Shown piece after piece: positions 18,375-56,228 of a stretch of DNA of 64,000 bases. Within the stretch, counting starts at the first letter, position 1; the number at the start of each line of letters is the position of its first letter. Under the pieces are notes generated by a model that worked only from the letters and a program-made list of their open reading frames with translations, had not been told where the DNA came from and searched no databases. Source of the DNA: Haliclystus octoradiatus (Eukaryota > Cnidaria > Staurozoa > Stauromedusae > Haliclystidae); the NCBI GenBank assembly GCA_916610825.1, contig OU744452.1:15418110-15482109 (forward strand). The letters run 5' to 3'. Made by a program: the position numbers and the translations under genes.

Positions 18375-19469
18375 TTATCTACATTCTGCTTTAGCTAGGA
18401 TAGTCATAATAGGTAAAAGTACCCCCTTTGAATTGGAATAAACGCTTTTTAATTTTGAAACATCACTTTGACATTCTGTTTCAAATATATCAATAAAACG
18501 TTTCCATCTTGATATCTTACTTTGTTGATATGATTTTTGCTTAACAGACCATTTACTTAAAGGCTTTTTACCTTGCGAGCCATGATACCAAAACCTAATA
18601 ACATCAAGAGGTGAAACTTTCCTACCATTTACTTTTCTTGGTAGATCATATGGTGCTAGCTCATTATCAACATTATTTTCTTCTACGATTTCATGTTTCA
18701 TAGTTTCATTATTATCTTCTGAAATGTCATCAATGTTATTATTTATATCATTTGGTAAAATGTTTGTTTTATAGAAGCCTGTTCCAGTTATCTCTCTCTG
18801 CTTAGTTTTCTCAGGTGTTGAAAAAATCATTAATTCTTTGGAACAAGAATGAGAAGGTCCTTGTAGCTTTAGAACCGATATATCTGAATCCTTCCGTTCT
18901 TCATTTTTTCCCCGATTGGATAAGGAATTCATTTGTACGACGCCTTTAAAAGCTGAGCCAGAGATATCTACAAGATCATCAAATTTTGTAATGATATTAT
19001 ACGTTTTTGTTGATAAAAACTCTTGCCAATCCATTCGAAGATTTTTTGCCTCAAGATCAAAATCTCTAGATGGAGCTGATAAACTTTGGCTAAACTCTAC
19101 TAGATTTGTTGGATTTTGGTATTTATGTTTATCGCATGGGCTTAATTCTGGACCATTGTACCTAAAATCCTCAGTGTTATATTCTCGATTCGATGTCGAA
19201 AGATTCTCCCATAGTGTCATTTCTTTTTGTCTCCATTTTAAATACAGATGATCTTGTGAACGAGACTCTGATGAGGTATCATTTACTTGATCCGCATTAC
19301 CCGTGTATTGACTGCTCCATGGTCTCTTTCCATTTGACATAGTTGGGTATCGTTGATCATCGTTATCAGTAGAAGAGTTCACACGTTTTCTATAAGACTC
19401 ATTTAATTGTGTTGGGAATATCAATCGTGTTTTCACACGTGACTGGATCTGATTTTCTTCTACTTCCAT
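18375..19469 (-). CDS. Unknown protein, paralogue 1 of an intact pair (364 aa)
   Basis: An uninterrupted 364-codon frame, long for such AT-rich DNA. I do not recognise the family. The N-terminal part (residues 1 to about 110) is hydrophilic with QSRVKTRLIFPTQ and SNGKRPW. The middle is acidic, rich in Asn/Glu and variable. The last ~95 residues are basic and highly conserved with the second copy (GRKVSPLDVIRFWYHG, PLSKWSVKQKSYQQSKISRW). No signal peptide, membrane segment or zinc motif is seen. On the minus strand an acceptor, TTTCCTATTTCCGCAG, ends at 19528, so the start ATG lies 58 bases into an exon whose 5' intron is upstream. Compared with paralogue 2 the C-terminus is shortened: the sequences diverge right after ILAKA through a small indel. 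A possible AATAAA signal lies at 18157-18162. It could be a lineage-specific host gene or a transposon-derived protein. Confidence 0.75.
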   Translation of the reverse strand: MEVEENQIQSRVKTRLIFPTQLNESYRKRVNSSTDNDDQRYPTMSNGKRPWSSQYTGNADQVNDTSSESRSQDHLYLKWRQKEMTLWENLSTSNREYNTEDFRYNGPELSPCDKHKYQNPTNLVEFSQSLSAPSRDFDLEAKNLRMDWQEFLSTKTYNIITKFDDLVDISGSAFKGVVQMNSLSNRGKNEERKDSDISVLKLQGPSHSCSKELMIFSTPEKTKQREITGTGFYKTNILPNDINNNIDDISEDNNETMKHEIVEENNVDNELAPYDLPRKVNGRKVSPLDVIRFWYHGSQGKKPLSKWSVKQKSYQQSKISRWKRFIDIFETECQSDVSKLKSVYSNSKGVLLPIMTILAKAECR

Positions 19470-19526
19470 CGTTAAAGAAATAATCCCTTTTTTGAATTAA
19501 ACTAACAAAGTCTTTATTCCAATTTT

Positions 19527-19542
19527 TCTGCGGAAATAGGAA
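19527..19542 (-). other. Splice acceptor upstream of paralogue 1
   Basis: The minus strand reads a pyrimidine-rich tract ending CCGCAG, followed by an exon start AAAAATTGGAATAAAGAC. The exon start aligns with ATAATTTGGGATAGAGG after the acceptor at 55040-55041 in paralogue 2. Confidence 0.55.
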
Positions 19543-20228
19543 AAGAAATTAAATTATAGGTAGATTCATGTGAAAATTATTTAAGGCAGTGGTGGCTAGT
19601 CCATATGGTCACGCGGGTAGTTCCTTTCCTGTCATTTCAAATAGATATTTAAGAAAGCATGCTATTGATGACATAAAGTTATCCCTTCTTTCATTTTGAT
19701 ATTCGTACCTCTTCGAATAGTTTAAATGCATTTTATGATGTATCGAAATCTGGTTTCTGTAGCATAGCTTAAGAATTAAATTATTTAGAACAAAATTGAC
19801 CTTGAACATGGTATTTTGAAGATTCTCGTGTTGCTCTTTCTGAATCCATAAAAGGAACGATACTATTTTCCACAAGAGAGTTTGACCGTGATTTTTGGCC
19901 AACATTCTAAGTATTGATTGCGGAAAACGAATGTCGGAATTGCATTTTCTTTATTTCATCAAAAATGGCATTGCTTATCCCGATCCTTTTAGCTGGTTGT
20001 CTTATATAGTATAAAATTTTTCAAAAAGAGCTAAGACGGAAAATTTTAACGGAAAAGAGTCGCGCTATGCAAAAACACAACAGTGACGTGTAACTGAGGA
20101 TAGAAAATCAGTTTTATCCAAATCCGTTTTGTTACAAAAGGCAATACGTACACTTTAAAGCTTGTTCAAATGAAGATTTTATGGAAAACAATAATATCTG
20201 TGAACAGACCTTTTTGGATTACAACAGC
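19543..20228. other. Stretch without recognised gene
   Basis: A 98-codon minus-strand frame (19609-19905) lies upstream of paralogue 1 but has no domain and no visible splice link to it. Confidence 0.4.
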
Positions 20229-20237
20229 GGCGTTGGA

Positions 20238-21195
20238 CGGTGTCTGTAACATGCGTGATTGCGTGCTGCGTACGTTTACAGGAAGTACGTCATAATTTGT
20301 CACCTTTTTGACTACGACATTCGCTTACGAATTTTAGCGTCTCGATGTTATGAAAAAAAGCGAGTTCCAGACTTGATTAATTTATTAAGAGATTAAAAAG
20401 TAAAGCCGTATAGCTAAGAATTTTCTATATATGCCACGAATTGTTGAACTTGATTTGGCAGGAAATCTATCACAGGAAAACGCAATTATTTGCAGGGGTT
20501 AGAACGTTCTGAAATGTTTATCGAAGTCTGTATCAATAACATCATGTGATGCATAAATTGAGTTGAAATTACTAAAAATACGTTTTTAATTTTTAATTTT
20601 TCTTCAGCCACTCTAACAACAACTCATCTAATCCAAACGTGTATACTTCTTTCTTCAAATCTTAATTTTTCTTCAATTCTTTTAATCTTATCATGTTATA
20701 ACAATTATTATTATTATCCTTATTTAATTGAATAAATGATAACTGTAAATAATAAGTCCCCCAATAAACAATCTGCACTCAATCATTGTAGCTACACATA
20801 TATCTAAAAGTTTTCTGTAATCTAATTAATTTGCTTTGTTTCAATGATTGAAATATATTTCTACTTCTACTATTTCTATTTGAAATGTGTATGTATGTTT
20901 AATACTGTATATAAAACGGTAATATCATAAAACGTTATAGCTGTCAATAATATCATTATTTAGCCTTCGACTAATGAATGGTTAATAAATCAGAATATTA
21001 ATATAATAATCAAGCCCGGAGTATTGAAATTCCCTGACAATTAAGACATGACAGCGACTGCAAAATTTAACCAAACCTGAACTTTTTTCGTAACATCGAG
21101 ACAATAAAATTCGCTATTCAAAAAGATGATAAATAATGACGTATTTCCTGTAAACGCGCGCAGCACTCACGTACGCACGCAAGTTACAGACACCG
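20238..21195. mobile_element. Mutator-like MITE, perfect 9-bp target duplication
   Basis: The left end starts CGGTGTCTGTAACATGCGTG and the complement of the right end CGGTGTCTGTAACTTGCGTG. The inverted arms run for roughly 135 bases. GGCGTTGGA repeats directly at 20229-20237 and 21196-21204. A 9-bp duplication with long inverted ends is the signature of Mutator-like elements. The interior is AT-rich with no coding frame, so mobility would have depended on a transposase supplied elsewhere. Confidence 0.85.
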
Positions 21196-21204
21196 GGCGT
21201 TGGA

Positions 21205-24010
21205 TAAAAAAATTATTGTCATACTGATGCATGAATTATTTGAAATTTTATATAGAATATGAGAATATCAAACAATATAAATTAATGAGAAGGTTTTGCC
21301 CGATGACACATCCCCTTCCCTCCCTACCAAAAATCCTACGAGACAACACTGATCTAAGGGAAGTGTGCAAGCGTTGATTGTAAAAGAAATGATCCGCATC
21401 TATCCAAAAAGCAAATTAGAGGCAGGATTTGAGGTCATGAAAGTCTAGGATACATGCAGTCCTTATAATGACAACATAATGACCGAAAGTTAAGAATTGT
21501 CTGGATATTCATTAAGCGTTTAGATTGGTTATACAGAGTATGTTCATCTTCCATTTTTTAATCATTTATTATCCGATTTTGTATGTTTTATGTTTCTCTT
21601 CCTTTCTGTGTTTGCTGAATTTTGGGTTGATGAACTACAATATTTTCAAATGTTAGCAATTTTGACAGTAGTTTGGGTGAATAAAAGATGACGAGGATGA
21701 TGGTGAAATATTTCTGGGGTTAAGTCTGATTTGGGATCTATTTTACTTACATGTTTTGAACTCGGAGTCACGTCCCTCTGGAAATTCTTACTCCGTACAG
21801 CCCCTATCCTATGTTGTAGTTAAATGTGGGTGTGTGAGTAGATGGATATGATTCCCCTTGAATGTGGCATTCAGATTCAGGCGCAATTGTACATAGGATA
21901 ACAGTTTTGGAAAATTAATTTCATTAAGAGTAGCAGCATTACATTAATCAATCATGATATAAAGAAATATCATTATCAACAATATTGAATTCTGGTTGAA
22001 ATGCTTCAATTTACTCGGATTAATCCAACTTGCACCCACTGCTGCGATTACAATGGGCGGAGATGACATTTTGAACTAAACTACTAGTCCCAAGTAAACC
22101 TTCACTTAATCAAGTTAAATTTTGATACATTTGATAGTGGTGCTCAGCAAAATCCATAAAAATCCGTAAACATGATAGGGAGAAATCTTCTCAGCGTAAA
22201 AAACAAATCATTTGAAATCATTGTGAAACAAATTCGATAGTAAAAATATCAATAGATTGAAATTTATCAACACAACACTGTTATAATTAGTCAGTATGTT
22301 ATAATAACCATCCTAATGCTAGCAGTAGCATCAAGAACAATTTCTGTTCACTAGTAATTTCGTGGTGGGACAACCTACCTAACGAATTGAACCGAAGTTG
22401 GCATCAACCTTCGAGTCAAGATCAGAAGCCATTGATTTATCAAAGCATTATAAATGCTAAATTTCCCTTGCTTTTTAAATTTCATTCTTAATTAACTATA
22501 TGTATTTTAGACTTAACAATATGTATTTTACGGCTATTTACTGAGTGAAGGCTAACACCTTCCTCTATCTGCCAGAAGTAGTATTGATCTTTATGGACAA
22601 AACTATTCCATTATTTCCATATCATATTATAAAATAAATAATGAATTTAGCCCCGGGGAATATAGGGAGCTGTGACTTACAGCCTGGTAATTGCACTGAT
22701 GTGGTGGCTGTGAGAACACTCGAAACGTTGTAATACTGGAAAATTATCATGCTGCAATTCATGACATTCATAGCTGAGCCATGCATACTCATTTGCTAAA
22801 TAGTGAGTTATAATATTCATCTAAAAAGATTACAAAAATTTGCATTATTTAATAATGTATAAGAAGGCATATCAAGTCAATGTTATATGCACAAACCAAC
22901 GATGGGCGTTTTTTTAAATGACAAAAATGAGTAAATTTAATGACAAACTTAGTTCTTTGCTTTCAAAAATGAATTGAGAAGTAATATTTGTTTAGAAATA
23001 ATCAAAACCCATGCAGATATTAATATCATATTCCTATAATAATAGATGCCTAATATATGTTCAATAACTATTCAATATTAAAATTCACTTACTATGAGCT
23101 ATATTAGAGAAGCCAACTTTTTGTTCACGGTATTTCCTCGGCTACCATCTGGTAATATATATCTTGGTATTAAATAAATGTTAGCCTGTGATTCATATAA
23201 TCCAGACACAAATTAACAAAGAACAATTTGTTTGGGATATTCAATTGTTGTATTAACCTCATCAATGTGATTGTTTACAAGCGCTGAAAACGGTGTGTGA
23301 CGTAATTTGAAGCTCTGTTTCGTAATCAAAACGTTGATATTATGAAGTAAATAAAGTAGATAAACATGATTGAAACCTAAATATTTTTGGATTAGGTTTA
23401 GAATTTTGAGTTAAGTATATTAATCCTAAATGTTTAATTTTTCATAAACACTTTCAACATCAATCTTGAGGTCACGTTCCTACTAGAATGTTGCATAACA
23501 TCAACAACGATTTATCTAGAGCAGGCTATCCGAGTCTATTGTCACGTTAACAAGTTTAAATAGCTTGAAAATCAGTTGAATTAAATTAACTTGAATAAAT
23601 TTTATAGTATTCATACTTGATCGATTCACTTATTGAACTGAAAAAGTATATTAATTATTATAGGACAGTATGTCAGTGCGTTAATTTTTGCAACATGATA
23701 CCTATATATGCCTGTATTTAACCATTTGAGTTGACAAATAAAAATACATATACATCCATTCTTGTTGATGGTGGTATTTCTTGAGGTATGAATATATTTT
23801 AAACCTGACAACGATGTCCAGTTTATTTTCTTTACATCTACAATAAATCTACAAGGAAACCAAAAATGTGGATATGTTTGCATTAATTCATATGCCGGTG
23901 TCTGTAAACTGCGTACGTGGATCAAAATTTAAAAAAAATAATCGCGGTCTTGCTGTGTTAAAATTTTTCCGGGAATTTTTCGCAAATTTACCCCTCAAGA
24001 TACTGGTAAA
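21205..24010. other. Non-coding stretch, no gene seen
   Basis: About 2.8 kb of AT-rich sequence. The 99-codon minus-strand frame at 23626-23925 shows no recognisable feature. Confidence 0.45.
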
Positions 24011-24016
24011 TACTTT

Positions 24017-24430
24017 TTAATACCCTAGTCTTGCCGAATTTCGACTACTGCTCTGTCGTATGGGGGAATTGCAGGAAACAACATATTGATCGCCCAGATT
24101 GATCGCCTCCAGAGATTGCAGACCCGATGGATGAGGACAGTTCTTCTTTCGCTGTAATTATCGAACACGGGTCTCTGACATGCTTATAGTCAACTTGGTT
24201 GGCTATCAGTCAGAGACAGTTGAATAACATCTCACCAGCTAATCTTCACACACAAAATCAAATTCGACATAGCCCCTCCTGTGCTTCTCCATTTATTCGA
24301 AAAACCACATTCCACAAGAACACGCTTGTATTCCCACAACGACATCTACATTGAGTCAAGCCATTCACACTCATTTAAACACGCTGGTGCTCGAAGGTAG
24401 AATGGTCTTGCGTCTGGGATGAAAGTGGTT
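24017..24430 (+). pseudogene. LINE reverse transcriptase C-terminal remnant
   Basis: The plus strand encodes LVLPNFDYCSVVWGNCRKQ, then after a frameshift QIDRLQRLQTRWM. Near the end lies a segment resembling SHSHSFKHAGARRWNGL. This order is typical of the C-terminus of ORF2 in CR1/Jockey-type non-LTR elements. No upstream domains remain, so this is a 5'-truncated and mutated copy. Confidence 0.7.
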
Positions 24431-26440
24431 GGTTAGTAGTGGCGGTGCCAAATTCAGCATCTCCTCAATAATCAAATGCATGTCAATAACACATTTAACT
24501 AATTTTTGCTCACTTATGTATATATTGTTCGCTCTGTAAATAATTATTTTTTCTACTATAACTTATTATAACCTGTTGTTATATTTTGCTGGGGGGACTT
24601 CACACGGAGACGCGCCATTTCATTTTTAAGGGGTAGCTTTTCCAAATTCTTGTGAAATTTTAGGGTGTCAATTTAGAGATTTTCGAAATTTTTAAAACTT
24701 TTCCTTTGTTTTACTCGTAAAAACATGAAATTTTAGGGTCTCCGTCCTCAGTTGTTGTGCAATTTTAAGGATTTCCTCGATTAGAAAATGGCACACTTTT
24801 GTCTAAAATATATTGAAGTACTCCCCTCCCCCGAGTTTATACAATAAAAATTAAAATCAAGTTTAAAAAGCGTACTATAGATCCATATAGGCCTATAAGC
24901 TTACATGTGAAAGTGCTCGATTTTATTTGAAGCATGATATAATACCTCAAATGCTTGTGAAACTCTGATATACGGTTTTACCTATATATTATTAGGTCTT
25001 ACAAATTGTTGATGATTTCTGGCGACTTCGATCCGTAATCACAGACAACATTAATTGTTTTGATTATTTGTCTGTACTACCAAATAACTACAAATTTCAA
25101 TATGAAAGCTAAGAAGTTTATCAAATAATCAAAGTTTAAATCAACTTTCAAGGCTTTTTGCTTCTCATTAGATATCCAATGAAATGATTCGGTTGTGTTG
25201 TAAGAGGATAGTATTAATGCATGGAATTCATTACTCAGTTATGAATAGGTCAGTCTGATTTAACGACCGTATTTGATGAAATTCCTTGGAGGTTTTTGCT
25301 AACAACTCTGTTTCGGTAATTAAACACCAAACACTGAAGTCTCTCATGAAATGATCCATAATTGCACTCAACGATTACATGTTGGGAACTCAACCAATCA
25401 ATGATATTTATAAACTAATTTATTCTGAGCGCATGATATTCCTGTATCAATGTTTTTACAGCATAATAGAATAAAATTATTGTCAAAATCTGAACTAGAG
25501 CTCCATACGTTTTTCTTTAACGGCAAACCATCTGGAAGCTTGGACACCTGTGTGCAAATTTCTGAAAATCGGGTTAATAGGCCACCAGAAATATAAATAA
25601 TACCTCGCCCCTTATAGTGCGTGTATTGAAATATCCCACGCATCATTACCTTTTATATAATAATAGCGTTTCTTGCATAATAACAGTGCTCCTTATGCAA
25701 TAATAATATAAATAATTATGCGTATACAATAAATATCACGATTCACGAGTACAAAAATCGGATGAAAAATCCTCTAGATTCACGCGTCTGAATTACTCAA
25801 ATATATTATTTCTATTAGATAGACTAGACATAATTTTATTTCAATCATGGAACATTTACATAGCCTACCAGTACAAAAAAATTACATGCATGTTTCGGTT
25901 TACAATAATTGTTGTCACCCCTTACGCAGTTCTGCTTGTTTATGGCGGGGGACAATTTATTTACATGTTGGTTTATTTATTGATAACAAAGACATGAAAA
26001 ATGGAAATAATGAAGAATGAAGTTAAAAGAAAAAAGAAAGAGAGGAAATCTGTCGGTTATGATTAAACATAAACAAACATAAATTAATGATAAAAATTGA
26101 TGAAAGTAATGAAACTAATTATACAAAATATCTAAAGGGTTTAATTTCGTCATCTATTGTACAGAATTGCGATTTTAATTGAAGTTATATGTATTTATGT
26201 GTTGTGTATTGTATATATTAATGTAGAATACGTAGCTAATATTGTAACACTTGTATTTATGTAATCACATGTTTCTGTTAGTGGATTAGATTCATTCAAA
26301 CATCCAAACATTCATCACATGGCGCAGTTGATATTATGGAACCTCTTCATATTATTACAGATAACATTATGATATTTATCTGTTCATTGACTTTATTATA
26401 TTCATTTTGTAAATAGTTTTTTCCGTTATTTTTTATCATC
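24431..26440. other. Non-coding stretch, no gene seen
   Basis: AT-rich sequence. The minus-strand frame at 25398-25646 has no domain. Confidence 0.4.
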
Positions 26441-26441
26441 A

Positions 26442-26862
26442 TGTCTCGTAGTTCGAAAAGTAAATCTGTAACTTCAGAATCAAGCACCGCTATGTAAGGC
26501 GCGGTTAGATGGTCTAGAGAAAATGTTATTGTCCCTCGTTAGCAATTTAGAAAAGCTTACATGCAAAAGCCAGCAAGATGATGTAAAAATACAACCAACG
26601 AAAGCAAAAGTGCATAAAAAGCCTGGTATTGTGATTGGCGATATCAAATTGACAGTTATTTAATCTTAATACGCAATTAAATCAATGTCCTAATGAAAAT
26701 CAAATCATCATAGTTTTTTATATCTCGTCTTACACAAGAATTTATAGACATGGTTAGAATTGTTTTGAAAATTGATTTATCCTCTTGTTCTGCTACTAAC
26801 GACTTAGATGAATTATTTTCATTTTACAAAAAGAAAGATAACTCACGAGTTTGTCGATCTAC
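26442..26862 (+). pseudogene. Unidentified coding relic
   Basis: ATG at 26442 begins MSRSSKSKSVTSESSTAM and meets a stop. In a neighbouring frame RLDGLEKMLLSLVSNLEKL and KKPGIVIGDIKL follow, then FISRLTQEFIDMVRIVLKID and NDLDELFSFYKKK. The Ser/Lys-rich start followed by a short coiled-coil-like helix resembles ORF1-type or gag-like proteins of retroelements, but no family can be named. Multiple stops show it is not functional. Confidence 0.3.
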
Positions 26863-27082
26863 ATGATGAGTCGTAAACAATGCAAGAATGAAACATTCAC
26901 AACATATTATAGAGAATTATTAAAATTATATTATATCTTATTGATCCTTGTATACAGATTGTCACGATAAAACTTTGGGTGATTTCCTCATAGAAGAACT
27001 TTTTGATTCTGACATTCGCCGGAAATGTTGTGCGCTGAGCGAAGACTCATCTGTTTCCGGAATAGTAGTAGTAGCAGTAGTA

Positions 27083-27233
27083 TAGACAGTCACATTATAG
27101 GAATGTGCCGCCCCTCTTACGCCTTACATATTTGCTACACAAAGAACGCCACAAATCACGGTCAAACATAGCTGACAAAAAACTTGTAAATAACACAATT
27201 CACGATACATGACATTATGAAAAGATACTACTA
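27083..27233 (+). repeat. Dispersed repeat, partial copy
   Basis: It matches the reverse complement of about 57600-57755: both contain TATAGACAGTCACA, TTTGCTACACAAA and AATTCACGATACA in the same order and spacing. The repeat may extend to about 27300 with weaker similarity. Confidence 0.6.
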
Positions 27234-27540
27234 CTATTTCCGGAACGTGCACCCTTTGCGAAGCGGAAGAATTTGCACGATCAGAAGAACGGAAAATTGT
27301 TGAATGCAATATTTTCACAAAGTTATTAAAGCAGAAACAAATGGTTCAAAATTGAAAATCACACAAGAAATCACATCGGATATCTCATGTAAACATTGCA
27401 GAAATAAAATCCAGCTCTTGATTTTAATAATTGCTGGGCTAACGACAAACTTTGTCATAATTGTAATCGGTCGTAAAGCATATCAGACCGATTTGCAGGG
27501 ACGGGATAAAAGTAAACTGTGCTAGCGTCGACGAGAATCA

Positions 27541-31149: not shown

Positions 31150-33270
31150 ATGACAGCGAATATTTTACCCTTCGTTTCGTATGTGTCCTTCGACATTTTA
31201 GCAATTTGATATGATGATTGGTTCAAAGATTGAGAAGAAGGATACTCACATGAGAATACCAATTGGTTCTCTGGAGAGGGTATGTGTTTGTTTGCGTTAT
31301 TTGGTGACTGGAGATTCGCAATTGGCAATCGCAACAAAGCAATACATGCTACAAGTTTCATCCCGCCATCTTGCTTGCTGAAGATGTCACCTTGAGATGA
31401 TTTGCATTGGTTTGACTCACTATTCGCTGCAAAGGATTTAATAGACGATTTCTCTCTGTTTTTATTGACAACGATTTACCGTAGAATTACAGCTGCTATA
31501 TATGGAATTTATATATATATATATTATAAATAATACAGTGTGGTACAATGGCTTATTGGCAAATGAAACAACAGAGGATATTTATAAATTCATCCTCAGT
31601 TGCATGTGGCCTTGAAAATTCTGAAAAGAACCCTTGTTGATCGTAAGGTACAGAGAAATATCAATAAGTGGTCTATAGATAAATTAACTTTGTTAATTTC
31701 GTTTGGAATATTTCCAAAGATTTGGAAGAAATCACATATTTAAAAAGAAAGGCAATTCCATGGAGTTGTAGCAGTGTTAAAGATAGAGAAGAGATACTCA
31801 AATAATACTAGTTGCTTTGCTTAGTAAAGTTATAATGAATTACTTTCGACTACATCATGTCGATAATTATCTATTTCGCAATACATATTTATGTCGCTAA
31901 TTACAGTACAGTTGTGACGTAGATAACGGTCACTACAGAGTGATGATTCTGTTGGAGAAGGTATATTTACAAATATCATAGTTGCAATTCATTTTTGAAC
32001 AAAGTCTTAAAGATTGTTTACGAAAAGGATACTTTGACTGTGCAATTGTAAAAAAGCCGTATGGATCTAAATCTATTGAATTATATAACATTCTCAAAGT
32101 AATATGCAGGTCGAATTTTAATCGGTGCAATTTTAGGATTTCTAATTCCAGATAGGTTAGGCGGTTGTTGTAGGACTTGTCAAACCTGCAAATGAAAGAA
32201 AATATATCTTGTAAAAATCGTTGGACCTGCTCGAGAATATTTATGTCCTTAATAAGATGTGGATTCGAAACCGAAGTGATGATCCAAGAATTAGTCGTAC
32301 CTATGCTATAAATGACTGAATTAGTAATTATCTGGATTATTTGATGAAAATTTCTCCATAAGAAAAGGCTAAAAAGCTTTTGCGAATATCATTGTGCAAT
32401 GTTTTGAACACTTCAAATCAGATGTGAGCTGGACTCCAAGATCCTTTAAAGAGGCCCTCCATTCCATTACTAATCAAACAAATTTTCAGACTAGTATTTT
32501 GAAATCTATATATTGTCTGCAAAAGGCATAAAAATAACTGAACCTGTAAGGATAGAAATAACCAGACATGTTTTCTATCCAATGTTATGAACTAGCAAAC
32601 ATGATACATGCAACAATCATGGCACCTACAATTAATGGAGACCCAGTATAATTATTATGTAGCTTCCATAGGCTAAAAGTAATGATCTGACTATCTTTTA
32701 GCGTCATTTTTTTTATTCAAACAGTACAAATCGTGTATATATACAGCTGGTGGTTAGTGAAAAGAGTGCACTTTAGCTTTTGGTTGTTTTATGTTGAAAA
32801 ACGACATTTGGGATGATTATTTTCAGGCATGGTGCATACTCCTATACACGCGTGGGGTGTGAGTTTTATTTCACTTATATTATGATCAAACATTTTATTT
32901 ATCTTTAGTATTTACTTTTTGCCTCATGTGTGAATTATCATTTATATTGAATAACTTCATTGTTACGTGTGCACTTCCTGGCCTGTGTATATTGGTTCTT
33001 GAAAAATTCAAAAAATGGAGTGGGAGTTTGATTAACTGAAGTGACTTTTATTACTAAGATCGGTTGTATAGCGCTGTTCATTTCGGCTTCATTTCAAATT
33101 TTCATTAACTGCGGAAAAGATGAAATGAAGTGTGCAATACCTACGCAAAATTGTTTTATCCGACTTATTGTCAATTATTTACAAGCTTTTTCTCCCGTTT
33201 TGCCAAAACACTTTATTTGAAAGGAATTCGAGATTATTGATCTTTCCTATACATTCGGACGAGTTTAAAA
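31150..33270. other. Stretch without recognised gene
   Basis: Contains a short TA run near 31508-31525 and small frames, for example 31933-32130 on the minus strand, without recognisable domains. Confidence 0.4.
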
Positions 33271-33955
<685 letters not shown>

Positions 33956-41159: not shown

Positions 41160-41566
41160 TTATATTTTTAGTTGTACTATAATGCATTGGCTAAGTAAAT
41201 TATAAATAACAAAGGACTGAAGAGAGTCACCTTGTGGCACACCTATATTACTAACTACATTATTTCCTGTATTGTTATCTAGTTTTACTTTCAAAACTAC
41301 ATTTTCCATAAGTATTTTTATCATATGTAATTCGTCTTCATCATCTACTTCTTTTAAAATATTTACAATGTGATCACGTTTTACAGTATCAAAAGCCTTG
41401 GACATATCTAATAATAATAGAAAATATGCTAAAATCTTCTGAGGTTAGAGTTTTCTGCTAGAATCATAAAAGCAAAAACATGTACAGTGGTGCTCCTACA
41501 TTTCTGGTAGGCTGATTGTGATTTTGGAATTAGCCCCATGAACTTATCTAGACAGCACCTCAGCAT
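41160..41566 (-). pseudogene. LINE reverse transcriptase core, broken
   Basis: TCMLRCCLDKFMGLIPKSQS begins the piece, followed by AYQKCRSTTVHVFAF, MSKAFDTVKRDHIVNIL and NIGVPQGDSLQS. These are conserved RT motifs (the first catalytic Asp region and the GVPQGDSLSP-type motif). The catalytic YADD segment was not found. The reading changes frame near 41405. Confidence 0.75.
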
Positions 41567-43271: not shown

Positions 43272-43903
43272 TCAATTTAACTTGTGCCACTTTATGTTAA
43301 GCTTTTCTTTTACTAATCTATGATCTGTGTACGTTTCTATGTCACTGTAGGGCCTAGAATCTTCTATAAATGTTCTATGATTTTCTTTCATCATTATATA
43401 GTCAATTTGATTTCTGTTGGGGTTTTTCCTCAATGTTCCATTTTTGTCATTATCGTCTTGTACTCTGATATGGGCGCTTCCCAAGTGGGTAGATGCACCA
43501 TTTTATGAGGAAATATTTTGTTGCATAGTATCATTTCATTTCTGAGAAGCATTTTTGCAAGTGACCTGTCATTTGAGTTCATGGTATCGATGCCATATCT
43601 TCCTATCACGTCTGGGAATTCTTCTCTGCCAAGACCTGTTTTGGTGTTCTGATCTCCTCCTACGATGAAGATATCTCTGTTATTTATTTGCTGCATTACG
43701 TTTTCTAATTGTTCATAATTTTCCTCTTTTATTTTGGCTTTTTTTTCACTCGCATGCAAAACTGGTGCATATGTTGAGATAAATATTATATTTCTATTAT
43801 TAGTTTTATTATTTCGATTTACATTGTTAAGTTCTATAGTGGCTATATGATCAGAAATTGTCTTACATTCTGGATGTATTCCTTTTTCTATACCAATACC
43901 CAC
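43272..43903 (-). pseudogene. LINE endonuclease domain, broken
   Basis: Frames at 43430-43903 and 43272-43484 contain GIGIEKG, IFISTYAPV, IFIVGGDQNTKTG and NRNQIDYIM, characteristic of the APE-like endonuclease that nicks target DNA for LINE insertion. Two frames are needed, so at least one frameshift lies near 43440-43480. Confidence 0.75.
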
Positions 43904-44379
43904 TCCATGGTAGATTTTTTCTTGATTTCCCGTATGAAATATTTCGTATGTTGTCTTTTTATTTTATGTTTCTTGTATAGCTAACATAGATAGTTTATAA
44001 TTACGTATATCATTTGCTAATTGTTGTTTTTTTAATGCCTGTGTTTAAGCCTCTTACATTTAAAGTACCTATACATTGAAAACTTGTCTGTAGTATTAAT
44101 AGTTTTATCAGACATGGTTGACGGATGTTGATCATGACTTTAATAACACTTCTCTAAGATAGAGTTTGCGAGGAGTCACCCGTCACAGCCGGCTTTTGCA
44201 GAACCTGTGGCATTATATTTGGCAAAATATTGAGGTTATTACGTACCAGGAAAGATGACATATATATTCTTAACTTGTAGTGGTTTTCTTTGCAGATTTT
44301 AAACAAATATATACCAATCACATAATACACAAGAAAATAGATATATTAAGTGTCACAGCGTATTGAAATGGCTTTGAAA

Positions 44380-46689: not shown

Positions 46690-48006
46690 TCAATGAAGCT
46701 CCACTCTTGACGAAAGAGGTAGTGTTGACATAATTTATTTGGATTGTGTAAAAGCATTCGACTACGTGTTGAATGATATAAACTGATAGAGAAAATAGAA
46801 ATATTTGGTATCGGAGGTTATTTTCTCAAATGGCTGAAATTCTTCATATACTAATCGTCGTCATTGTAATATTGTTAATGGAATTTATTCTGATTGGTCA
46901 CCTGTGATATCTTGTGACTCTCGACTAGATTCTGTTCTGGGACCATGCATTATTGTTTACCATTTATATCAATGATATATAAGACGTTCTAAAAGATAGC
47001 TCGATAAGACTCTACATAGATGATTGTAAGGTGTATTTTACATGCAACAGCTATGATGACTCTGTTCTTTTGCTAAAAAGATAATGACATGATTATGAAA
47101 TGGGTTAATGATAACTAACTAACTATAAATATTCATAAATGCAAAGTGTTACGCCTTGAGAAGCATGACATTTTAGCAAATAGTAATAAAATAGAATTAC
47201 CTATTAGAGTCTGTATCAGAAATTCCAGACTTGATAGTTTTAATCGACCCAAAATCAGATTTTCGTAGCCATATTTCAAAGACGGCTATAGTCGTGTTGG
47301 TATTATAGATCCAAGATGATACATAGGGTATTCAAGTCGCGTAACATTTCTTTTAAAATATAACTATTATGTTGCTGTGTACGACCTAATTTGGAACATT
47401 CCAGTCTGTTTGTCAAACCATTGCCTTGACCATTGCCTTGTTGTTCATAGCGATTGTTCATAGATAAGCCGGGTAGATAAGTCATTCTCTTATGTTAATA
47501 ATATCTCCAAGTCGAATATTAAAACGTTACAGCTACGTCGACACCATGCAGATAGACCGAATTTATTATTTTGATGGCTATGTAGATCTTGATAAAATTT
47601 AATTTTTAAATGTACTCCACATGATAGAATTGAGTTCCCCTATTGCAACTCTGAAAGGCATCGCCATTCGTTTGCTTTGAAGGCCATCAAAGCATATAAC
47701 CTGTTATCAGTTAACACAAAGCAATCGAAGATCATACTTCCATTCGTTCAAAAGAGCAATCGAAAATGTATCACTCGATAAATTTTGGTACATAAAATAG
47801 GTAATCATAGCGAAATGATATTTCATATAGATATAATAAGATTCATAGTTTGTGCATAATTTATGTCAAACATCATACTCTTATACAATCAATTTAAAAT
47901 TTAGCATGTCATTTGATATATTTACTATACAGTATATTCCGTTTTAGATTGTAATACCCATTAACATGTCGTTTCGTTAAAATAAATGCCACATTACATT
48001 ACATTA
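46690..48006 (+). mobile_element. Decayed LINE fragment with ACATT tail
   Basis: Plus-strand remnants in order: DIIYLDCVKAFDYVL (RT catalytic region, 46730-46775), a segment resembling GIYSDWSPVIS (46872-46910), RLYIDDCKV (site of the catalytic Asp pair, near 47010) and RIEFPYCNSERHRHSFALKA near 47630. The copy ends AATAAATGCCACATTACATTACATTA (47981-48005), a short tandem tail of the kind left by target-primed insertion. No continuous frame survives. Confidence 0.65.
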
Positions 48007-48099
48007 AATTTGAGATTTCATTGATTATATTATGATTATATGATTAGAACGTTACATAAAAACGCTACATTAAAATCGAGATATCATTAATAATTATTA

Positions 48100-48227
48100 T
48101 ATATGATATATTTCGTCAGTTTGACGGGCAAATAAAGGATACTTTACATTATAAAAAGTGTCACTTACATACTACAGCCTTAATTAAGATTAATAATTAA
48201 TTTTGGTTACTTGAGGCATGATGATAC
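48100..48227. repeat. Dispersed repeat with conserved hairpin, copy 2
   Basis: Parallel to 30201-30330: TTTGACGGGCAAATAAAGGA, a GATACTTT...AAAGTGTC stem with one G-T pair, CACTTACATAC, CAGCCTT and a final GGCATGA. Confidence 0.7.
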
Positions 48228-48757
48228 TATGATTTTAATGCTATTACTGATTATTATTTCTAATTAAATACTTTACAGAATGTTGACAACTCAAATGATT
48301 CAATAGTCTCTCTTTGAATTGAATAGAAGTTTGTGATGTAACAATATCATCTGTCAGATTGTATTAAATCATAATTATATTAATAAATTATAAATAATGC
48401 ATAATCTTCACCTTGAATTGTGGTACCGCTAAGTGTGCTAAATGTTTTGATCAATCTGCCTGCCAAGTGTATCAGTAGTTTTGGAGATATAAGCGTTTGA
48501 AAAGAGTCGCGGCACTCGTTTGGTCGTTAATATTCACTAGGTTCTTCAATTTATCATTATTTTGAATATAACCATATTTAAGATATAATTTATTATTGCT
48601 CAATGACTGATTTGGTAATAATATCGAAATATATCACATCTTGAACAAATGGTGTTAAAGAATTGATGTAAACTTATCAACTTATCTTTTGCTTCAATAT
48701 CCTCATCAACGATCAACGATCAACGATGTAAACAATCGATAGGTAAGCACAGATATT
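48228..48757. other. Region upstream of LINE ORF1
   Basis: Probably includes the 5' untranslated region of the LINE that follows. The start of the element could not be located. A three-fold TCAACGATC repeat lies just before 48728. Confidence 0.35.
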
Positions 48758-49813
48758 TTGAATTTGCTAGAGATGGGAAAGAAACGGGCCAAACAGAGTA
48801 CCAGTGACAATGAAGGCTTAGAATGTAAATGCAATGATAAACTGAAGGAATCGATCAATGAAATGAGGGAAGAAATATCTGAATTAAAAGAAATTATTTC
48901 TAAATTTATCGAGCGGGAAAAGTTGCCATGTCAACCAAATTCTTGGTCACAGGTAGTGGCTACAGCCCCTAACAATGCATTAATTGTCAATAGAACAATT
49001 AATGGAACAACAAAAAACTGCGCAAAGCTTCTTTCAGATGAACCTTCTGAAAAAATAATAGAAAAACTAAAGAAAAGTAAAATTAATGTTAAAGGATCAA
49101 TAATTACAACAAAAGGGAAAACAACCTCGATCGAAGTGCCGAATGAAAAGCTAGCCAGCATAAAATCATCCTTAAGTAAAGGTAAAATTACCTACAAAGA
49201 AATAAAAAAAAGGGACCCAGTCGCAATTATACCAAATGTTCCGAAATGGATGACATCTAAAGCTATGCATGATTCACTGCTTGCTGACAATCCAGACATT
49301 TTTGAGAGTCAAAATGGCATTATTAATTTATATCTGTTTCCAACAAAAGAGAATGCTCTTGATCAAAGAGTATCCTTACGACTAGCATCCAAAGCATTCT
49401 CTAAGCTTGCCGAGAACAACATGTGGCTAAGACTTGATTCAATACTAAATGTATGCGCCTATCCAGATCTGAAGCCAATTCGATGTTTTCATTGTGGCCG
49501 TCTTGGTCACAGTACAAAGAATTGTGAAATGATTGACGAAGAGTCAATTTGCTTTGATTGTGGTGATCAACATCCACTAGACAGGAAAAAGAAATGCAGC
49601 AGGAAAGAAAGAAAATGTGCCGCATGCTGCAAATCGAAGGCATTCCAATGCAAAGCAACATCGCATCACACCTTTGATGGCAGTTGCCCACTACTACTCT
49701 TACACATAAAACGCAACATCGGAAATACAACTTTCACAAACGCCACTTATGGAATCATCGAAAAACAACTTCAGCATATGACCCAAACAAAATACCGCAA
49801 TGCCCATCAATAA
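48758..49813 (+). CDS. LINE ORF1 protein, zinc-knuckle RNA-binding (351 aa)
   Basis: ORF1 proteins bind the element's RNA and form the particle that carries it back to the nucleus. The N-terminal ~50 residues after a basic start are helical with heptad-like spacing (LKESINEMREEISELKEI), a probable short coiled coil. The C-terminal third has a CX2CX4HX4C knuckle, CFHCGRLGHSTKNC, followed by further Cys/His pairs (CFDCGDQHP, CAACC, HHTFDGSCP), the multi-knuckle layout common in CR1/L2/Jockey ORF1. The start could be this ATG or the later one in MGKKRAKQ (residue 6). Its end overlaps the ORF2 start by 14 bases in another frame. Confidence 0.8.
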   Translation: MNLLEMGKKRAKQSTSDNEGLECKCNDKLKESINEMREEISELKEIISKFIEREKLPCQPNSWSQVVATAPNNALIVNRTINGTTKNCAKLLSDEPSEKIIEKLKKSKINVKGSIITTKGKTTSIEVPNEKLASIKSSLSKGKITYKEIKKRDPVAIIPNVPKWMTSKAMHDSLLADNPDIFESQNGIINLYLFPTKENALDQRVSLRLASKAFSKLAENNMWLRLDSILNVCAYPDLKPIRCFHCGRLGHSTKNCEMIDEESICFDCGDQHPLDRKKKCSRKERKCAACCKSKAFQCKATSHHTFDGSCPLLLLHIKRNIGNTTFTNATYGIIEKQLQHMTQTKYRNAHQ

Positions 49814-52800
49814 TCAACAATTCCGAATATCAACTGGATTATTTAACTCATCCATCCGTAAATATCAAGTAACTACGACTAACACGAAAACAAAACTTTA
49901 TAAAATATTGAAGCATATCGTATTATCCACCATAAACAATTTGTATGTCACAATAGCTACATCATTCACTACTGTACTCAAATGTTTTTCACAGATCAAC
50001 CAATATTTTATAACACTTATATATCTAATAATGCTCTGCTGTGGTGATATACATCCCAACCCTGGACCAATTCATAATATTAACATCGTCAGCTGGAACT
50101 GCAACAGTCTAAGGGGGAAGCAGCACGAAATCGACCACCTCACTAATAAATTATCACCGAATATCATTGCCCTATGTGAAACCAAATTAAACACTAATAT
50201 CAGCAATAAGCAAATAGACTTAGATGGATTCACTCTACATAGGAAAGACCGTCCCAACAGCACTGCTGGAGGTGGACTTGTATTCTACATCAACGACAAC
50301 ATCGCTTGCAGAAGAAAACCTCAATGGGAAAATAACGAAATTGAGATGATGGCATTCGATATTAAATTTGGCTTAAAAAAGGTGTCAATAATATTAACAT
50401 ACCGGCCACCAAATTTTGCACTGAAAAAGTATTTTGACTGTCTGAATAGTATTATGGAAACATTACTTAGATCAAGATCTGAGGTAGTATTGCTAGGTGA
50501 TTTGAATTGCGATATTAGCAAAAAAGTGAATAACACTCCTGGACAATCCCTTCAAGAATTTATTGATAACTACGCTCTCATCAATCTGATCAATGGACCA
50601 ACCAGACCATCATCAGGGACATCACTTGATGTCATACTCGTATCGCATCCAAGACACTTCGTTGCTAGTAACATCATCGCAACTGGAGCTTCCGACCACA
50701 GTATCTGCATGACAACATACAAAACTAAATGCCTACGCACACAGCCAAGATTAATAACTTACAGAAAAACGAAAAATACAAACTTTACTTCACTCAATAA
50801 TGATCTCTGTGGGATACAATGGGAACGTATGTACACTAATGATAACGGTGAGCTACTGTCAGCCGATGATGTATGGAACAGATGGTTCTTTGAAGTTAAC
50901 TCAGTCATAGAGAAACATTCACCATTGACATCTAAACTTATCAAGGCACAAAGACCACCATGGATTACAGCTAAAATCGACGAAGCTATCAGACTCAGAG
51001 ATCACTTATCGAAGTTACCACGAAATGAAGAAAATATCCGCCGCTTCCACACTCAACGGAATCTAGTCACAAAACTTAAACGACACAGCCTCCAACAATA
51101 TCTCGAAACATCTTCAAAGACTGAACCCTCAAAATTTCACCGTAACCTACAAAAAATCACTGGTATTGGGAAAAACAAATCTGCTAATGTAGCTAATTTA
51201 TTGGAAAACAATTGCTTAATAACTTCTGCTAAAGAAAAAGCACAAATAATAGGAAGATATTTTAAAAATTGTATACCACCTACTCCAAACTAGACTGCCG
51301 ACTATCTCAAAAATCACCCAAGCATACATCAAATCATGAATCGCTCCTGCACTTCCTTCTGTTTTAAATACACATCAGACAATGAAGTAAATAACATTAT
51401 CAAAAGATTCAGAACTAATAAGGCAACTGGGGCCGATAACATATCCGTAAGCTTCCTCAAAACTATCCTACCTAGCCTCACCTCTCCTATTACCGATCTA
51501 TTCAATCACTTAATAACAATAAATGAAATACCAAAAGCCTGGAAACATGGAATAGTCTCACCAATATACAAAAAAAACGATCCATCAAATAAAGAAAATT
51601 ATCGACCAATTACCATCCTCACTCATATCTCCAAAGCATTCGAGAAAATCTTAGCAAATCAACTCCAAAATCACTTCAAACCAATTTTCCCACCTGATAT
51701 GTTTGGATTTGTACATAGTCACAGTGCTGAAATGGCCCTCATGAAACTCACACAAGATTGTAGAACAGCCATCAACAAAAAACAAACTACTGCAATCGTC
51801 TCCCTCGATCTCTCCAAGGCATTTGATATGGTACACCATAAACTTCTGATGGAAAAATTGAGAGCTTACGGTGTAAATCCATCAAGTTGTAACTTAATCA
51901 ACAATTACCTAAGTGGAAGAACACAATCTATCAGAGTTGAAAGTCAGACTTCCTCGCCCTTCTCCTGCCCTCGGGGAGTCCCACAAGGATCGATAATATC
52001 ACCACTACTATTTAATATCTACGTAGCAGACTTTTCATTTCTTCCAATAACCTCTTCCATCATACGATACGCAGATGATACAACGCTATACTATTCCTCC
52101 AACCACAAAAACACTGCTGTCCAACACCTCAACAAAGACTTGGAAAAGGTGCACCAATGGTTCCAGCTGAATTGTCTAAAACTGAACCCCTCAAAAACTC
52201 AATGCCTACTAATCACTCACATTCCAGAACCCGACATTCACGTTACGAGCGCAAATCTTCTAAGTACTAATCAAATACATAACAAAGACATTACAATCGA
52301 TGATGTAACCTTACCTTGGCTCAATATAATAAAGATACTCGGTGCTCACATTGACAGTAGATTAAACATGAGATGTCATCTTCGCAATTGCATCAGAAAA
52401 GCCAATCTCTCCCTATATCAAATCACACAGGTTAAGAAATCCCTAAACCCACACCTTGCCAATACACTTTACAAGACATACATCCGTCCTCACCTAGAAC
52501 ATTGTAGCCTACTTCTTCTTGGAATTAATCAAACGGATAGACTAAAATTAGAAAGAATTCAAGAAAAATCACTAAAACACCTAACACGACCCAATACTGG
52601 TAAAGAATATCGTCTTCCATCTCTACACGTCAGAAGAATAGTAAAATTAACCAATATGATCCACAAAACACTCATAACAGAAACTCCAAAACTTTTACAC
52701 TCCCTCTTCAAGATATCCAACACTAAATATACGTCATCTTGCCGTCCAAACAAACTCATCCCACCCATTTGCAGAACAACCCTGATGAAATGGTCGATTG

Positions 52801-52946
52801 TAGCAGTAGGTACTAGAGTTTGGAACTTTATCCCGGAAGTAATACGTGGGGAAGCAACAAGAACATTCAAAGAGTCAACTCTTGCGTATTTGACATCCCT
52901 GGAATGGAAAATAAATTATTGGTTTATGTCAATCAGCTGTCGATAG
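49800..52946 (+). pseudogene. LINE ORF2: endonuclease and reverse transcriptase, one stop codon
   Basis: ORF2 nicks the target DNA and copies the element's RNA onto it. Residues 82-90 form a 2A-like motif GDIHPNPGP. The APE-type endonuclease follows: NIVSWNCNSLRGK, CETKLN, GDLNCDI (residue 233 on) and ASDHSI (Asp at 299). A TAG at 51291-51293 interrupts the frame; the same frame continues without shift into the RT half (51294-52946) with NYRPITIL, SLDLSKAFD, GVPQGSIISPLLFN and YADDTTLY (YADD at 52068-52079). The C-terminal part has RPHLEHCSLLLLG and a tail typical of CR1/L2 elements. A single nonsense codon is the only visible lesion. Confidence 0.85.
50043..50069 (+). other. 2A-like motif in ORF2 leader
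   Basis: Codons for GDIHPNPGP follow a hydrophobic stretch (ITLIYLIMLCC). 2A peptides make the ribosome skip the Gly-Pro bond at NPG/P. They are known at this very position, just before the endonuclease, in some CR1/L2-type elements of marine invertebrates. The usual Glu of D-x-E-x-NPGP is His here, so activity is uncertain. Confidence 0.6.
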
Positions 52947-53199
52947 TTAGATTATAATGTTATATCTACCAAAAACACTAGCATTTTCCTCATAAATATA
53001 ATACAATTAGCATAATTATGGAACTTGTCTCGTTCAAAAAACGAAAAAAAAAAAAAAAAAAAAATAAATAAAAATAAAAAAATAAAAAAAATAATAAAAT
53101 AATAAAATAATAATAAAAATTATATTATATTATTAATACTATTATCCTTATCATTATTTCTACTAATTTACAATATTATAATTAATAACTTACTTTTAA

Positions 53200-53246
53200 A
53201 TTCGTATCAATGTATAAACGAGCATTTGCTCATTTTGGTTACGAAT
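53200..53246 (+). other. LINE 3'-end hairpin
   Basis: ATTCGTA (53200-53206) pairs with TACGAAT (53240-53246), and inside lies GAGCATTTGCTC. A stem-loop close to the 3' end is what CR1/L2-like reverse transcriptases recognise. The tail ATACACACACACACC follows. Confidence 0.6.
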
Positions 53247-53311
53247 CGAAATAAAATTATACACACACACACCGTTTCAAAACTTCGAAAACGGAGAGTC
53301 AAAAATGAAGT

Positions 53312-53513
53312 GACGTCATAAGGTCTAATTTCTGATCACGACGAGTGAGCATGATACGTTCACGACAGTTATCGATCACATCACTCGTTTTGAACAACGG
53401 AACATTCGAAAATCGTGCTCACTTGTTATGAATGAAATCCGACGAATGATCGACAGCTGTCGTGATCTAGTCGCGCTCATTCATCGTGAAATTAGAAGTT
53501 GTGACGTTACCTA
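53312..53513. mobile_element. Foldback element downstream of the LINE
   Basis: TCTAATTTC and the following ~60 bases (GAGTGAGC..., TCACGACAG, TCGATCA) recur in inverted order toward the right end (GCTCATTC, CTGTCGTGA, GAAATTAGA). Both ends carry ACGTCA or its complement. The arms match imperfectly. The boundaries are approximate and no target duplication was established. Confidence 0.5.
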
Positions 53514-53515
53514 AC

Positions 53516-55041
53516 TTTTAAAAATTTGAGTTTTTATTATTTATGGGTCGACCCTATTTGAGCTACAGTAGAAACTGTTTGCAACGTCACCTATTATAAA
53601 GGATTATTGTTTATAGCGTACAAGTTTATTGCTCCCGGCATATTTTAGTAGGTTTTCTCTTAATAATTATCTCCTATAACGTCACCTATTTTTATTCCCG
53701 TGAACTAATAAAATCGTAAAATAACGTTTCATTTACAAAAATCTTTGGTGTATATGCAATTCCCCGGCTAAATATACTACTATTTCAGCTAAAAATTTTT
53801 CTGAAATTCAACACTTTCTAATACTAATTTACCAGCAGAACAACCGACAAATTACAAAATTAAGAGGGAAATTCTGCGGGAAACATCATTATTTAATGGC
53901 AAATTGTTGGATAAGAAGATGACATGATCAACACTCCTAGTAACGTATAGTTCTCTTGTCCTTAACTTAAACTTCAAGTTTTCTCTTTGTCATCAAATCA
54001 AACCAAATTCTTGGTTAATGCAATTCAAATATTAGATCTACAGAACAGTCAAAATGAACTAATTCGAGATTTCAGCTTTGAATTTTGGATTATCTCTGGA
54101 ACACATGGGTATAAAGCTGCATAGTTCATGTAGAATATTGTAAAATCGTTGTCTTAATTACTGACTGAACATGCATAGGGCTAAATGCAATATATAGCAG
54201 AGCTTTAAATATTAATAGCAGTCAGAGAGCCGCAGAGAACCAGACAGTCATATTATCTTTCCGGTTCCATAGCTGGAAACCGGAAAACTTCCAGCAGGAT
54301 TCCAAAATTGTAAATTTGATACCCCAAAATTGCCCTCATGGTGATAAAGTGGTTCCCCAAAAATAGGCACATCCCTGTATAGCACCTACATATAAGTATC
54401 CCCTGGGCATCTGGTACTTTATTCAATTCAATTGATTAAATAAATTGCCTTCTAGTTGTCTTGGCGTAAAAATTCATGTAGTAAATATGTTCGTCTGATT
54501 TTCTGACTACTATTATCAGTTCATCTATTATATATTTTACATTTCATTGATTAAAAAATACAGCTAACATTTCCTTTACCCAGTCAAACACAAGAAAATA
54601 AAAATAAATTTCGAAGCTATGAAACCATAATTTTTGTTAAGCATCCATTTGTTCAATTTCAAGAGAAGAGAATTCTTAATCAGACAGTTTCTCCTAAAAA
54701 TAATTTTTTGAATGGATTCAAAGTTCAAAGGCTACAGCTCTATCGACGTCACTATAGAATAGAAGATCGAGAATCATTGGGAAATAAAGATTTTTCCAAC
54801 CAGCTTTAATGTGGTATTTTAGTTTTATCTTCAAGTTTGGTTCCTTTTTCGAGATTAAAATTAAAAGCAATGTTTCTACTTTAGCTGACACAAGTATATT
54901 GCATAACAGCCAATCATCAATCAGAACTACATCCATGATGTGATTGGTTGTTAACATTCAATTTCCCATGTTCTGCATTATATTCAGTTCTCATGATATT
55001 TTCAATTAAATCTAATCCAGCTGTTATGTTATTGTTCACAG
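53516..55041. other. Stretch upstream of paralogue 2, no gene seen
   Basis: AT-rich, with a CCGGTTCC...GGAAACCGG hairpin near 54261-54284. It should hold the promoter and first non-coding exon of paralogue 2, but neither can be pinpointed. Confidence 0.35.
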
Positions 55042-55091
55042 ATAATTTGGGATAGAGGTGTTTTATCAATAAAACGGATAATCCTCAATCG
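55042..55091 (+). other. 5' untranslated exon part and splice acceptor of paralogue 2
   Basis: TTATTGTTCACAG ends at 55041. The next 50 bases up to the ATG align with the 58 bases upstream of the ATG in paralogue 1, and contain an in-frame stop, so translation starts at 55092. Confidence 0.55.
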
Positions 55092-56228
55092 ATGGAAGTG
55101 GGAAAAGATCAGATCCAGTCACGTGTGAAAACACGATTGATATTCCCAACACAATCAAATGAGTCTTATAGAAAACGTGTGACTGATAATGATGATCAAC
55201 GATACCCAACTATGTCAAATGGAAAGAGACCATGGACCAATCAATACACGGGTAATGCGGATCAAGTAAATGATACTTCATCAGAGTCTCGTTCACAAGA
55301 TCATCTGTATTTAAACTGGAGACAAAATGAAATTACAATACGAGAGAAGCGTTCAATATCGAATCGAGAATATTACACTGAGGATTTTAGGTACAATGGT
55401 CCAGAATTAAACCCATGCAATGAACATAAATACCCCTCAAAAGCCATGTCAGAAGTAAGTGCCAGTTTGTCAGCTCCAGCAACTAGAGATTTTAATCTAG
55501 AGGCAAAAAATCTTCGACTTGATTGGCAAGAGTTTTTATCAACAAAAACGTGTAATATCAATAGAAAATTTGATAATCTTATAGATATCCCTGGCTCAGC
55601 TTTTAAAGGCATCGTACAAATTAACACCTCATCAAATCGAGAAGGAAACGAAGACAGAAATGGGTCAAGTATATCACACTTAAAACGACAAGGACCTTCA
55701 CATCTTTGTCCTGCAGAAATTATAACTTCTGAGGAAACTGTGAAGAGAGACACTCCTCAAGAGACGAACAGTGAACCAGAAATTTCACCTCGCGAAAATA
55801 ATATTAACATTGCTACAAATATAGAAGAGAATAACATGGATGAGGAAATTGAAACCGTAGAAGAAATCTATGTTGATAATGAACTAGCACCGTATAATCT
55901 ACCAAGGAAAATAAATGGTAGGAAAGTGTCACCTCTTGATGTTATCATGTTTTGGTATCATGGATGGCCAGGTAAAAAACCTTTAAGTAAATGGTCTGTT
56001 AAACAAAAATCATATCAACAAAGTAAGATATCAAGATGGAAGCGTTTTATTGATATTTTTGAAACGGAATGTCAAAGTGATGTGTCAAGATTGAAAAAAG
56101 TTTATTCAAATTCAAAAGGGGCACTCTTACCTGTTATGACTATCTTAGCTAAAGCAGATTCTGTAAATATTGATGAAACTGCATATTCTGCTAGTGCCAT
56201 CTCTCAAGATCATTTACTTCATATATAA
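55092..56228 (+). CDS. Unknown protein, paralogue 2 of an intact pair (378 aa)
   Basis: An uninterrupted 378-codon frame, clearly homologous to the minus-strand gene at 18375-19469. N-terminal identity is high (QIQSRVKTRLIFPTQ, DDQRYPTMSNGKRPW, DQVNDTSSESRSQDHLYL). The middle third is acidic and divergent, with many indels. The C-terminal ~95 residues are the most conserved part (PLSKWSVKQKSYQQSKISRW, KRFIDIFETECQSDVS, ending MTILAKA). Unlike paralogue 1 it continues about 18 residues further, to SQDHLLHI. The conserved basic C-terminal block could bind nucleic acid or a partner, but this is a guess. No signal peptide, membrane helix or catalytic motif is seen. It is followed by AATAAA at 56284-56289. 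I cannot assign a family. Confidence 0.8.
   Translation: MEVGKDQIQSRVKTRLIFPTQSNESYRKRVTDNDDQRYPTMSNGKRPWTNQYTGNADQVNDTSSESRSQDHLYLNWRQNEITIREKRSISNREYYTEDFRYNGPELNPCNEHKYPSKAMSEVSASLSAPATRDFNLEAKNLRLDWQEFLSTKTCNINRKFDNLIDIPGSAFKGIVQINTSSNREGNEDRNGSSISHLKRQGPSHLCPAEIITSEETVKRDTPQETNSEPEISPRENNINIATNIEENNMDEEIETVEEIYVDNELAPYNLPRKINGRKVSPLDVIMFWYHGWPGKKPLSKWSVKQKSYQQSKISRWKRFIDIFETECQSDVSRLKKVYSNSKGALLPVMTILAKADSVNIDETAYSASAISQDHLLHI

Follow-up and report, generated by a model that had tools for sequence, protein, structure and literature searches.

Small orphan multigene families of animals commonly have few copies that lie mostly on one chromosome, with rapid change outside one conserved module and likely conversion between copies, and the genes described here resemble them in each of these respects. 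We analysed a window of 64,000 nucleotides from the staurozoan Haliclystus octoradiatus (contig OU744452.1, here C8, positions 15418110-15482109; the coordinates of features below are those of the window), in which two related open reading frames are found in opposite orientation, each as a single open coding exon: A on the minus strand (18375..19469, 364 amino acids) and B on the plus strand (55092..56228, 378 amino acids), both full-length and placed exactly where the original prediction, made from the letters of the window alone, had put them. The best overall explanation, to which we assign a probability of about 0.6, is that these frames belong to a six-gene host family with a C-terminal binding module, called D2 below. 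The host-family part of this explanation, with A and B as short members of the six, appears highly probable. What sets the family apart from the known orphan families is that none of the libraries searched contains its module.

Two other kinds of described systems are relevant for comparison. According to PMC3212892, the GCR1_C domain occurs in CryptonF elements and in domesticated yeast regulators. Domesticated transposase-derived regulators as a class are comparable to the present family, which is low-copy and open, but no transposase relative was detected here and a transposon origin is therefore not established for the family.

Six members of a gene family in the genome

When the genome to which the window belongs (261,861,806 bases in 33 contigs) was searched with protein B, six matches were obtained: the two frames of the window and four more open ones, one of 332 codons on contig C7 (L004) and three of 582, 379 and 500 codons on C8 (L005, L006 and L007, respectively). 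These four share just the C-terminal block with B, at 35-46% identity. Searches with L005 and L004 recovered the same six loci, and no seventh member was found in the genome with any of the three queries (those with L005 and L004 were read at E-values up to 1). Because the counts from such searches are lower bounds, a separate signature test was made, in which a degenerate DNA pattern for QQSKxSRW occurred six times in the genome, once in each member, and the backwards control pattern not at all; a copy without this signature could escape both the protein and the pattern searches. Five of the six members lie on C8, which accounts for 21.3 of the 261.9 Mb, the six occupy four places, and A, B and L005 are found within about 90 kb. 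In line with the gene family that the original prediction had suggested, all six members have open frames and are diverged, with a conserved D2 that is 33-71% identical among them, the A/B pair excepted.

D2 is the conserved C-terminal block, a basic, tryptophan-rich module of about 95 residues that lies at 18384..18677 (minus strand) in A and at 55866..56159 (plus strand) in B and is common to the four genes elsewhere. The net charge of residues 263-364 is +8 in A and +9 in B, and 21 of the 95 gap-free D2 columns are invariant in all six members, nine of them within QKxxQQSKxSRW. In L004 to L007 D2 is preceded by D1, a second and diverged version of the module; A and B have D2 only. The D1 and D2 profiles are homologous (hhalign probability 98.9%, E 2e-17), with only a P, a W and a second W common to all ten copies. 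In a tree of these ten, all D1 copies stood apart from all D2 copies (support 0.93) and the D2 of A and B was placed beside that of L004 (support 0.80), which agrees with a single ancient duplication inside the gene and a later loss of D1 from A and B; no hidden D1 was detected in the N-terminal half of A and B (probability 0.1%).

The N-terminal and middle parts of the two proteins occupy 18678..19469 (minus strand) in A, where no D1 was found, and 55092..55865 (plus strand) in B; the first 75 codons or so are nearly identical between the two and the remainder is fast-evolving. L005, L006 and L007 also have an N-terminal CxxC segment in common, and no such segment was detected in the other three members or in the scanned surroundings. 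A scan for further copies of D1, D2 and the CxxC segment in the window, in about 170 kb of flanks and in 30 kb around the other members gave the known members only (best other E 0.22).

The original prediction had recognised no family that matches the C-terminal block, and this holds for the libraries used here (Pfam, NCBIfam, PHROGs, PDB and the viral, phage, plasmid and prokaryote sets), to which the term undescribed refers. No Pfam family reached its curated cut-off in any of the six members. The strongest match below cut-off was TXNDC16_N in L007, which lies on D1 at residues 273-326 (E 0.0024; 18.8 bits, cut-off 27), and others were DUF547 in L006 (E 0.019) and CrtO for D2 of A (E 0.14), the rest having E-values of at least 0.07. 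NCBIfam listed nothing for A and B, PHROGs gave one chance-level match for A (E 0.24), and sequence searches of the PDB with three alignments, that of D2 among them, gave nothing better than E 0.6. No relative was found in viral contigs (queried with B and with alignments that included D2), in phages and plasmids (single-protein query) or in prokaryote genomes (alignment queries). One match in a prokaryote genome, L001, was dropped, as its 22 residues coincide in part with the very pattern used for the search. A low-confidence model of D2, with a hairpin and helices, gave 0 matches with Foldseek against the PDB, and a literature search by peptide strings and general terms returned nothing relevant on this family.

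Open frames and purifying selection on D2

A and B are 73% identical in protein and 82% identical in DNA over 1155 alignment columns (55060-56183 against 19502-18363), and the similarity in DNA ends about 30 bp 5' of the ATG and near the stop codons. The intactness claimed for both frames was borne out, since their stop-free runs of 373 (A) and 390 (B) codons exceed the longest runs in 60 simulated first-order Markov sequences of 64 kb (mean 138, maximum 238 codons). In simulations of neutral substitution, in which substitutions and not indels were introduced, the frame stayed open in 22 (A) and 33 (B) of 5000 runs after 90 changes, and in 0 (A) and 2 (B) of 5000 after 180 changes, the number observed between A and B. 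One internal TAA was listed for A in the genome search; as the frame itself is open, this is its terminal stop.

An alignment that was blind to frame placed four gaps, of 9, 3, 3 and 9 nt, between the ATG and the C-terminal tail. Outside this main part, one gap of 8 nt lies 5' of the ATG and gaps of 3, 2 and 1 nt fall within or past the tail, so that not every gap there is divisible by three. With just four small gaps, the description of the middle of the proteins as full of indels was an overstatement, and its description as acidic clearly suits B alone (net charge -13 for residues 186-262, against -3 in A).

The ratio of nonsynonymous to synonymous divergence (dN/dS) between A and B was 0.58 over the whole length according to Nei-Gojobori (bootstrap 0.41-0.84), and 0.15 (0.06-0.35) over residues 256-356 of B, the C-terminal region with D2. 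When transitions were weighted 1x, 2x and 3x, the whole-length ratio became 0.61, 0.73 and 0.82, where the intervals of the last two extend across 1, and the C-terminal ratio became 0.17, 0.20 and 0.22 (Fisher p = 2.5e-6, 2.3e-5 and 1.1e-4, respectively). Other whole-length estimates were obtained with LWL85 (dN 0.161, dS 0.196), YN00 (dN 0.165, dS 0.341) and maximum likelihood (dN 0.158, dS 0.357), and depending on the method the ratio spans about 0.44 to 0.82. The dN/dS check that accompanied the original prediction thus had a divided outcome, the ratio being nearly 1 over most of the protein by some counts and clearly below 1 in the C-terminal block. As would be expected for a host family, the shared module D2 is under purifying selection, with a dN/dS of 0.15-0.22 between A and B. 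For D2 of L005 and L007, dN was 0.21 and dS 0.68.

Another finding was the low synonymous divergence in the N-terminal part. Among the codons that specify the same residue in A and B, 3 of 65 differ silently in residues 1-74 and 31 of 183 thereafter (p = 0.012), and the length of the longest conserved run was reached in 55 of 10000 permutations. When same-residue codons with a variable third base are considered, differences are seen in 8 of 133 within residues 1-175 and in 26 of the 115 that follow. The simplest reading is that gene conversion between the inverted copies has probably homogenised the first ~175 codons. A constraint on RNA or DNA in this region would fit the same low synonymous counts. 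In codons 76-175, however, amino-acid changes are per site as frequent as silent ones (dN/dS of 0.96, 1.15 and 1.28 by transition weight, with intervals that include 1), a pattern which recent shared ancestry fits better than silent-site constraint, and we regard such a constraint as rather unlikely.

Gene structure

Each gene may consist of one large exon that follows a splice acceptor and one or more putative upstream exons. Acceptor-like sites were scanned for in 360 nt around each frame start (YAG, at least 8 pyrimidines in the preceding 12 bases and no nearer AG). Relative to the ATG such a site was found at -58 in A (AG at 19529-19528) and at -50 in B (AG at 55040-55041), and the exon would in that case begin with a presumed 5' untranslated part (19470..19527, minus strand, in A; 55042..55091, plus strand, in B). 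As an in-frame stop lies between the acceptor-like site and the ATG in both, the ATG is likely the start of A and B. In L005, L006 and L007 acceptor-like sites are found 21, 9 and 15 nt, respectively, before the first cysteine of the CxxC segment, and L004 has several such sites and an ambiguous exon start. Alignment of the two 5' flanks, A against B, across the acceptors gives a score of 44, which is within the range of shuffled sequences (maximum 47.5). By eye, an AATAAA, common by chance in AT-rich DNA, is seen downstream of both A (18162-18157) and B (56284-56289).

Alternative explanations

A and B might be part of a mobile element, either as its cargo or as genes for its proteins, and this element would still be moving or have been immobilised recently. 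The many transposon pieces in the surroundings would suit this, and so would the fact that A and B resemble each other in DNA over the coding exon only, as might be seen after the copying of a small unit. Comparison of 3-kb flanks also gave matches between members, one between B and L004 (77% over 221 bp, same strand, 1.3 and 1.8 kb beyond the frames) and two on opposite strands between B and L005. None of these three, however, marks the shared ends of a unit, and the B/L004 match looks like a dispersed repeat, since it overlaps a repeat near B (57534-57748) of which copies lie at 27078-27228 and downstream of L004. Where many near-identical copies would be expected of a mobile element, we found six diverged members (a lower bound) in 262 Mb, five of them on one contig and, outside the A/B pair, with a D2 that is at most 71% identical. 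Around A and B no terminal inverted repeats or target-site duplications rose above control level: the best inverted arms (exact seeds of 11 within 5 kb) scored 15 for A, in AT-rich sequence, and 12 for B, and three control regions gave scores of 17, 13 and 13. The flanking direct repeats (within 400 nt of the assumed ends) were 8 nt long, and those of two control regions 8 and 9 nt. None of the six frames has a Pfam match to a transposase, an integrase or a reverse transcriptase. With arms and direct repeats at control level, no transposition domain and six members, a mobile element is very improbable, and the suggestion in the original prediction of a protein recently taken from a transposon found no support, as neither a transposition domain in the six frames nor convincing terminal repeats were found.

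An older connection to mobile elements would exist if D2 were a far-diverged GCR1_C (PF12550) DNA-binding domain of the CryptonF type and the family an old Crypton domestication. GCR1_C of CryptonF elements and of yeast Gcr1, Msn1, Hot1 and Cbf2 is a short basic module near the C-terminus, and the way in which its W, G, P and basic residues are spaced bears some resemblance to D2. In L007 a match to QRICH1, presumably a Crypton-related name, was also seen, well below the cut-off (E 0.15). The profile scans, on the other hand, were read to E 10 and listed GCR1_C for none of the six members (their filters drop most matches above ~0.1), and the genome search for it was negative, with the positive controls of that search also silent. 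In addition, the module is in tandem in four members and no Pfam match to a tyrosine recombinase was found in the six frames (the frames, not the flanks, being scanned), and we consider this origin improbable. We are equally disinclined to see A, B or both as young pseudogenes with frames that are still unbroken. Such a state would agree with the dN/dS of about 1 outside D2 and with the lack, in A and B, of the D1 and CxxC segment of their relatives, but it is at odds with the low ratio in D2, with the rarity with which a frame survives the observed divergence by chance and with gaps in multiples of three in the main part of the frame.

Several observations weigh against the six-gene host family with a D2 binding module. 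The ratio near 1 outside D2 is one of these, and with transitions weighted 3x the whole-length ratio rises to 0.82 with an interval of 0.59-1.15. The break points used in the conversion argument (the split at residues 1-175) were picked after seeing the data. The six members have 13 acceptor-like sites, against about 8 expected from a background of 0.37 per 100 nt, so that their number alone says little and it is their agreeing positions, noted afterwards, that count. No homology between the 5' flanks of A and B was found beyond about 45 bp, although a dS of ~0.3-0.4 should have left some. Finally, the AlphaFold2 models, made from two-sequence alignments, were poor, with a pLDDT of 32.5 for full-length A and 48.2 for D2.

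Other elements in and around the window

The statement that almost everything else in the window is broken is not quite correct, as a nearly intact long interspersed nuclear element (LINE) lies at 48758-52946 (plus strand). It has an open reading frame with a weak zinc-knuckle match, an endonuclease frame that contains CGDIHPNPGP, which we take to be a 2A-like motif, and a reverse transcriptase frame; the latter two share one frame and are parted by a single in-frame stop. Pieces of another non-LTR (long terminal repeat) retrotransposon are found at 41160-41444 and 43430-43963 (minus strand), with a reverse transcriptase below cut-off (E 1.3e-4) and an endonuclease-like frame seen by eye. A broken LTR retrotransposon, mostly judged by eye, covers 13799-17360 (minus strand), with, at 14244-14609, an integrase zinc-binding piece above cut-off and a core piece below it. 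Two pieces of a Mutator-like transposase (PF20700) lie at 61394-61837 and 62032-62715 (plus strand), and the unit ATT is repeated 228 times at 33270-33954 with 99% matches.

Long open frames in a stretch 10-20 kb downstream of the window (L009) appear by eye to be LTR and tyrosine-recombinase retroelements. Another stretch has, at L027:2091-2805, open segments of 46 codons; three of these follow one another every 144 bp, which suggests a tandem array. Contig C33 carries at 3135-4475 (minus strand) a COX1 frame with eight in-frame TGA codons; this is presumably a mitochondrial gene in which TGA codes for an amino acid.

Possible function and meaning of the family

In the host-family explanation the family would have grown through duplications of DNA, most of them along a single chromosome, and A and B would descend from an ancestor with both D1 and D2, of which D1 was lost, their first ~175 codons probably being homogenised by conversion as inverted copies. 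D1 may be a relaxed copy of the module and the linkers may be free to vary, and the CxxC segment may be a metal site or a means of pairing the proteins. In the least certain part of the explanation, D2 would be a basic helical module that binds nucleic acid or a partner, with the invariant QKxxQQSKxSRW as its working face, and would be held on a flexible, fast-changing linker, so that the proteins might act as nuclear adaptors or regulators. Nucleic acid would be the likeliest partner, though its binding is a tentative proposal, for which we see somewhat less than an even chance. A more far-reaching view, which we think unlikely, is that D1 and D2 constitute an undescribed family of nucleic-acid-binding domains and that the six genes together make up a young system for regulation or genome defence. 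The strictly conserved face QKxxQQSKxSRW would there be carried on freely changing linkers that are reshuffled by gene conversion between inverted copies.

The finding amounts to a small gene family that is defined by a module absent from the protein-family libraries searched. The alignment of six D2 sequences and the DNA signature, which genome-wide occurs only in the six members, provide tools to seek the family elsewhere. If D2 binds nucleic acid, the family would add a domain to those described; if it does not, the family would represent a clean case of low-copy genes that diverge around one conserved module.

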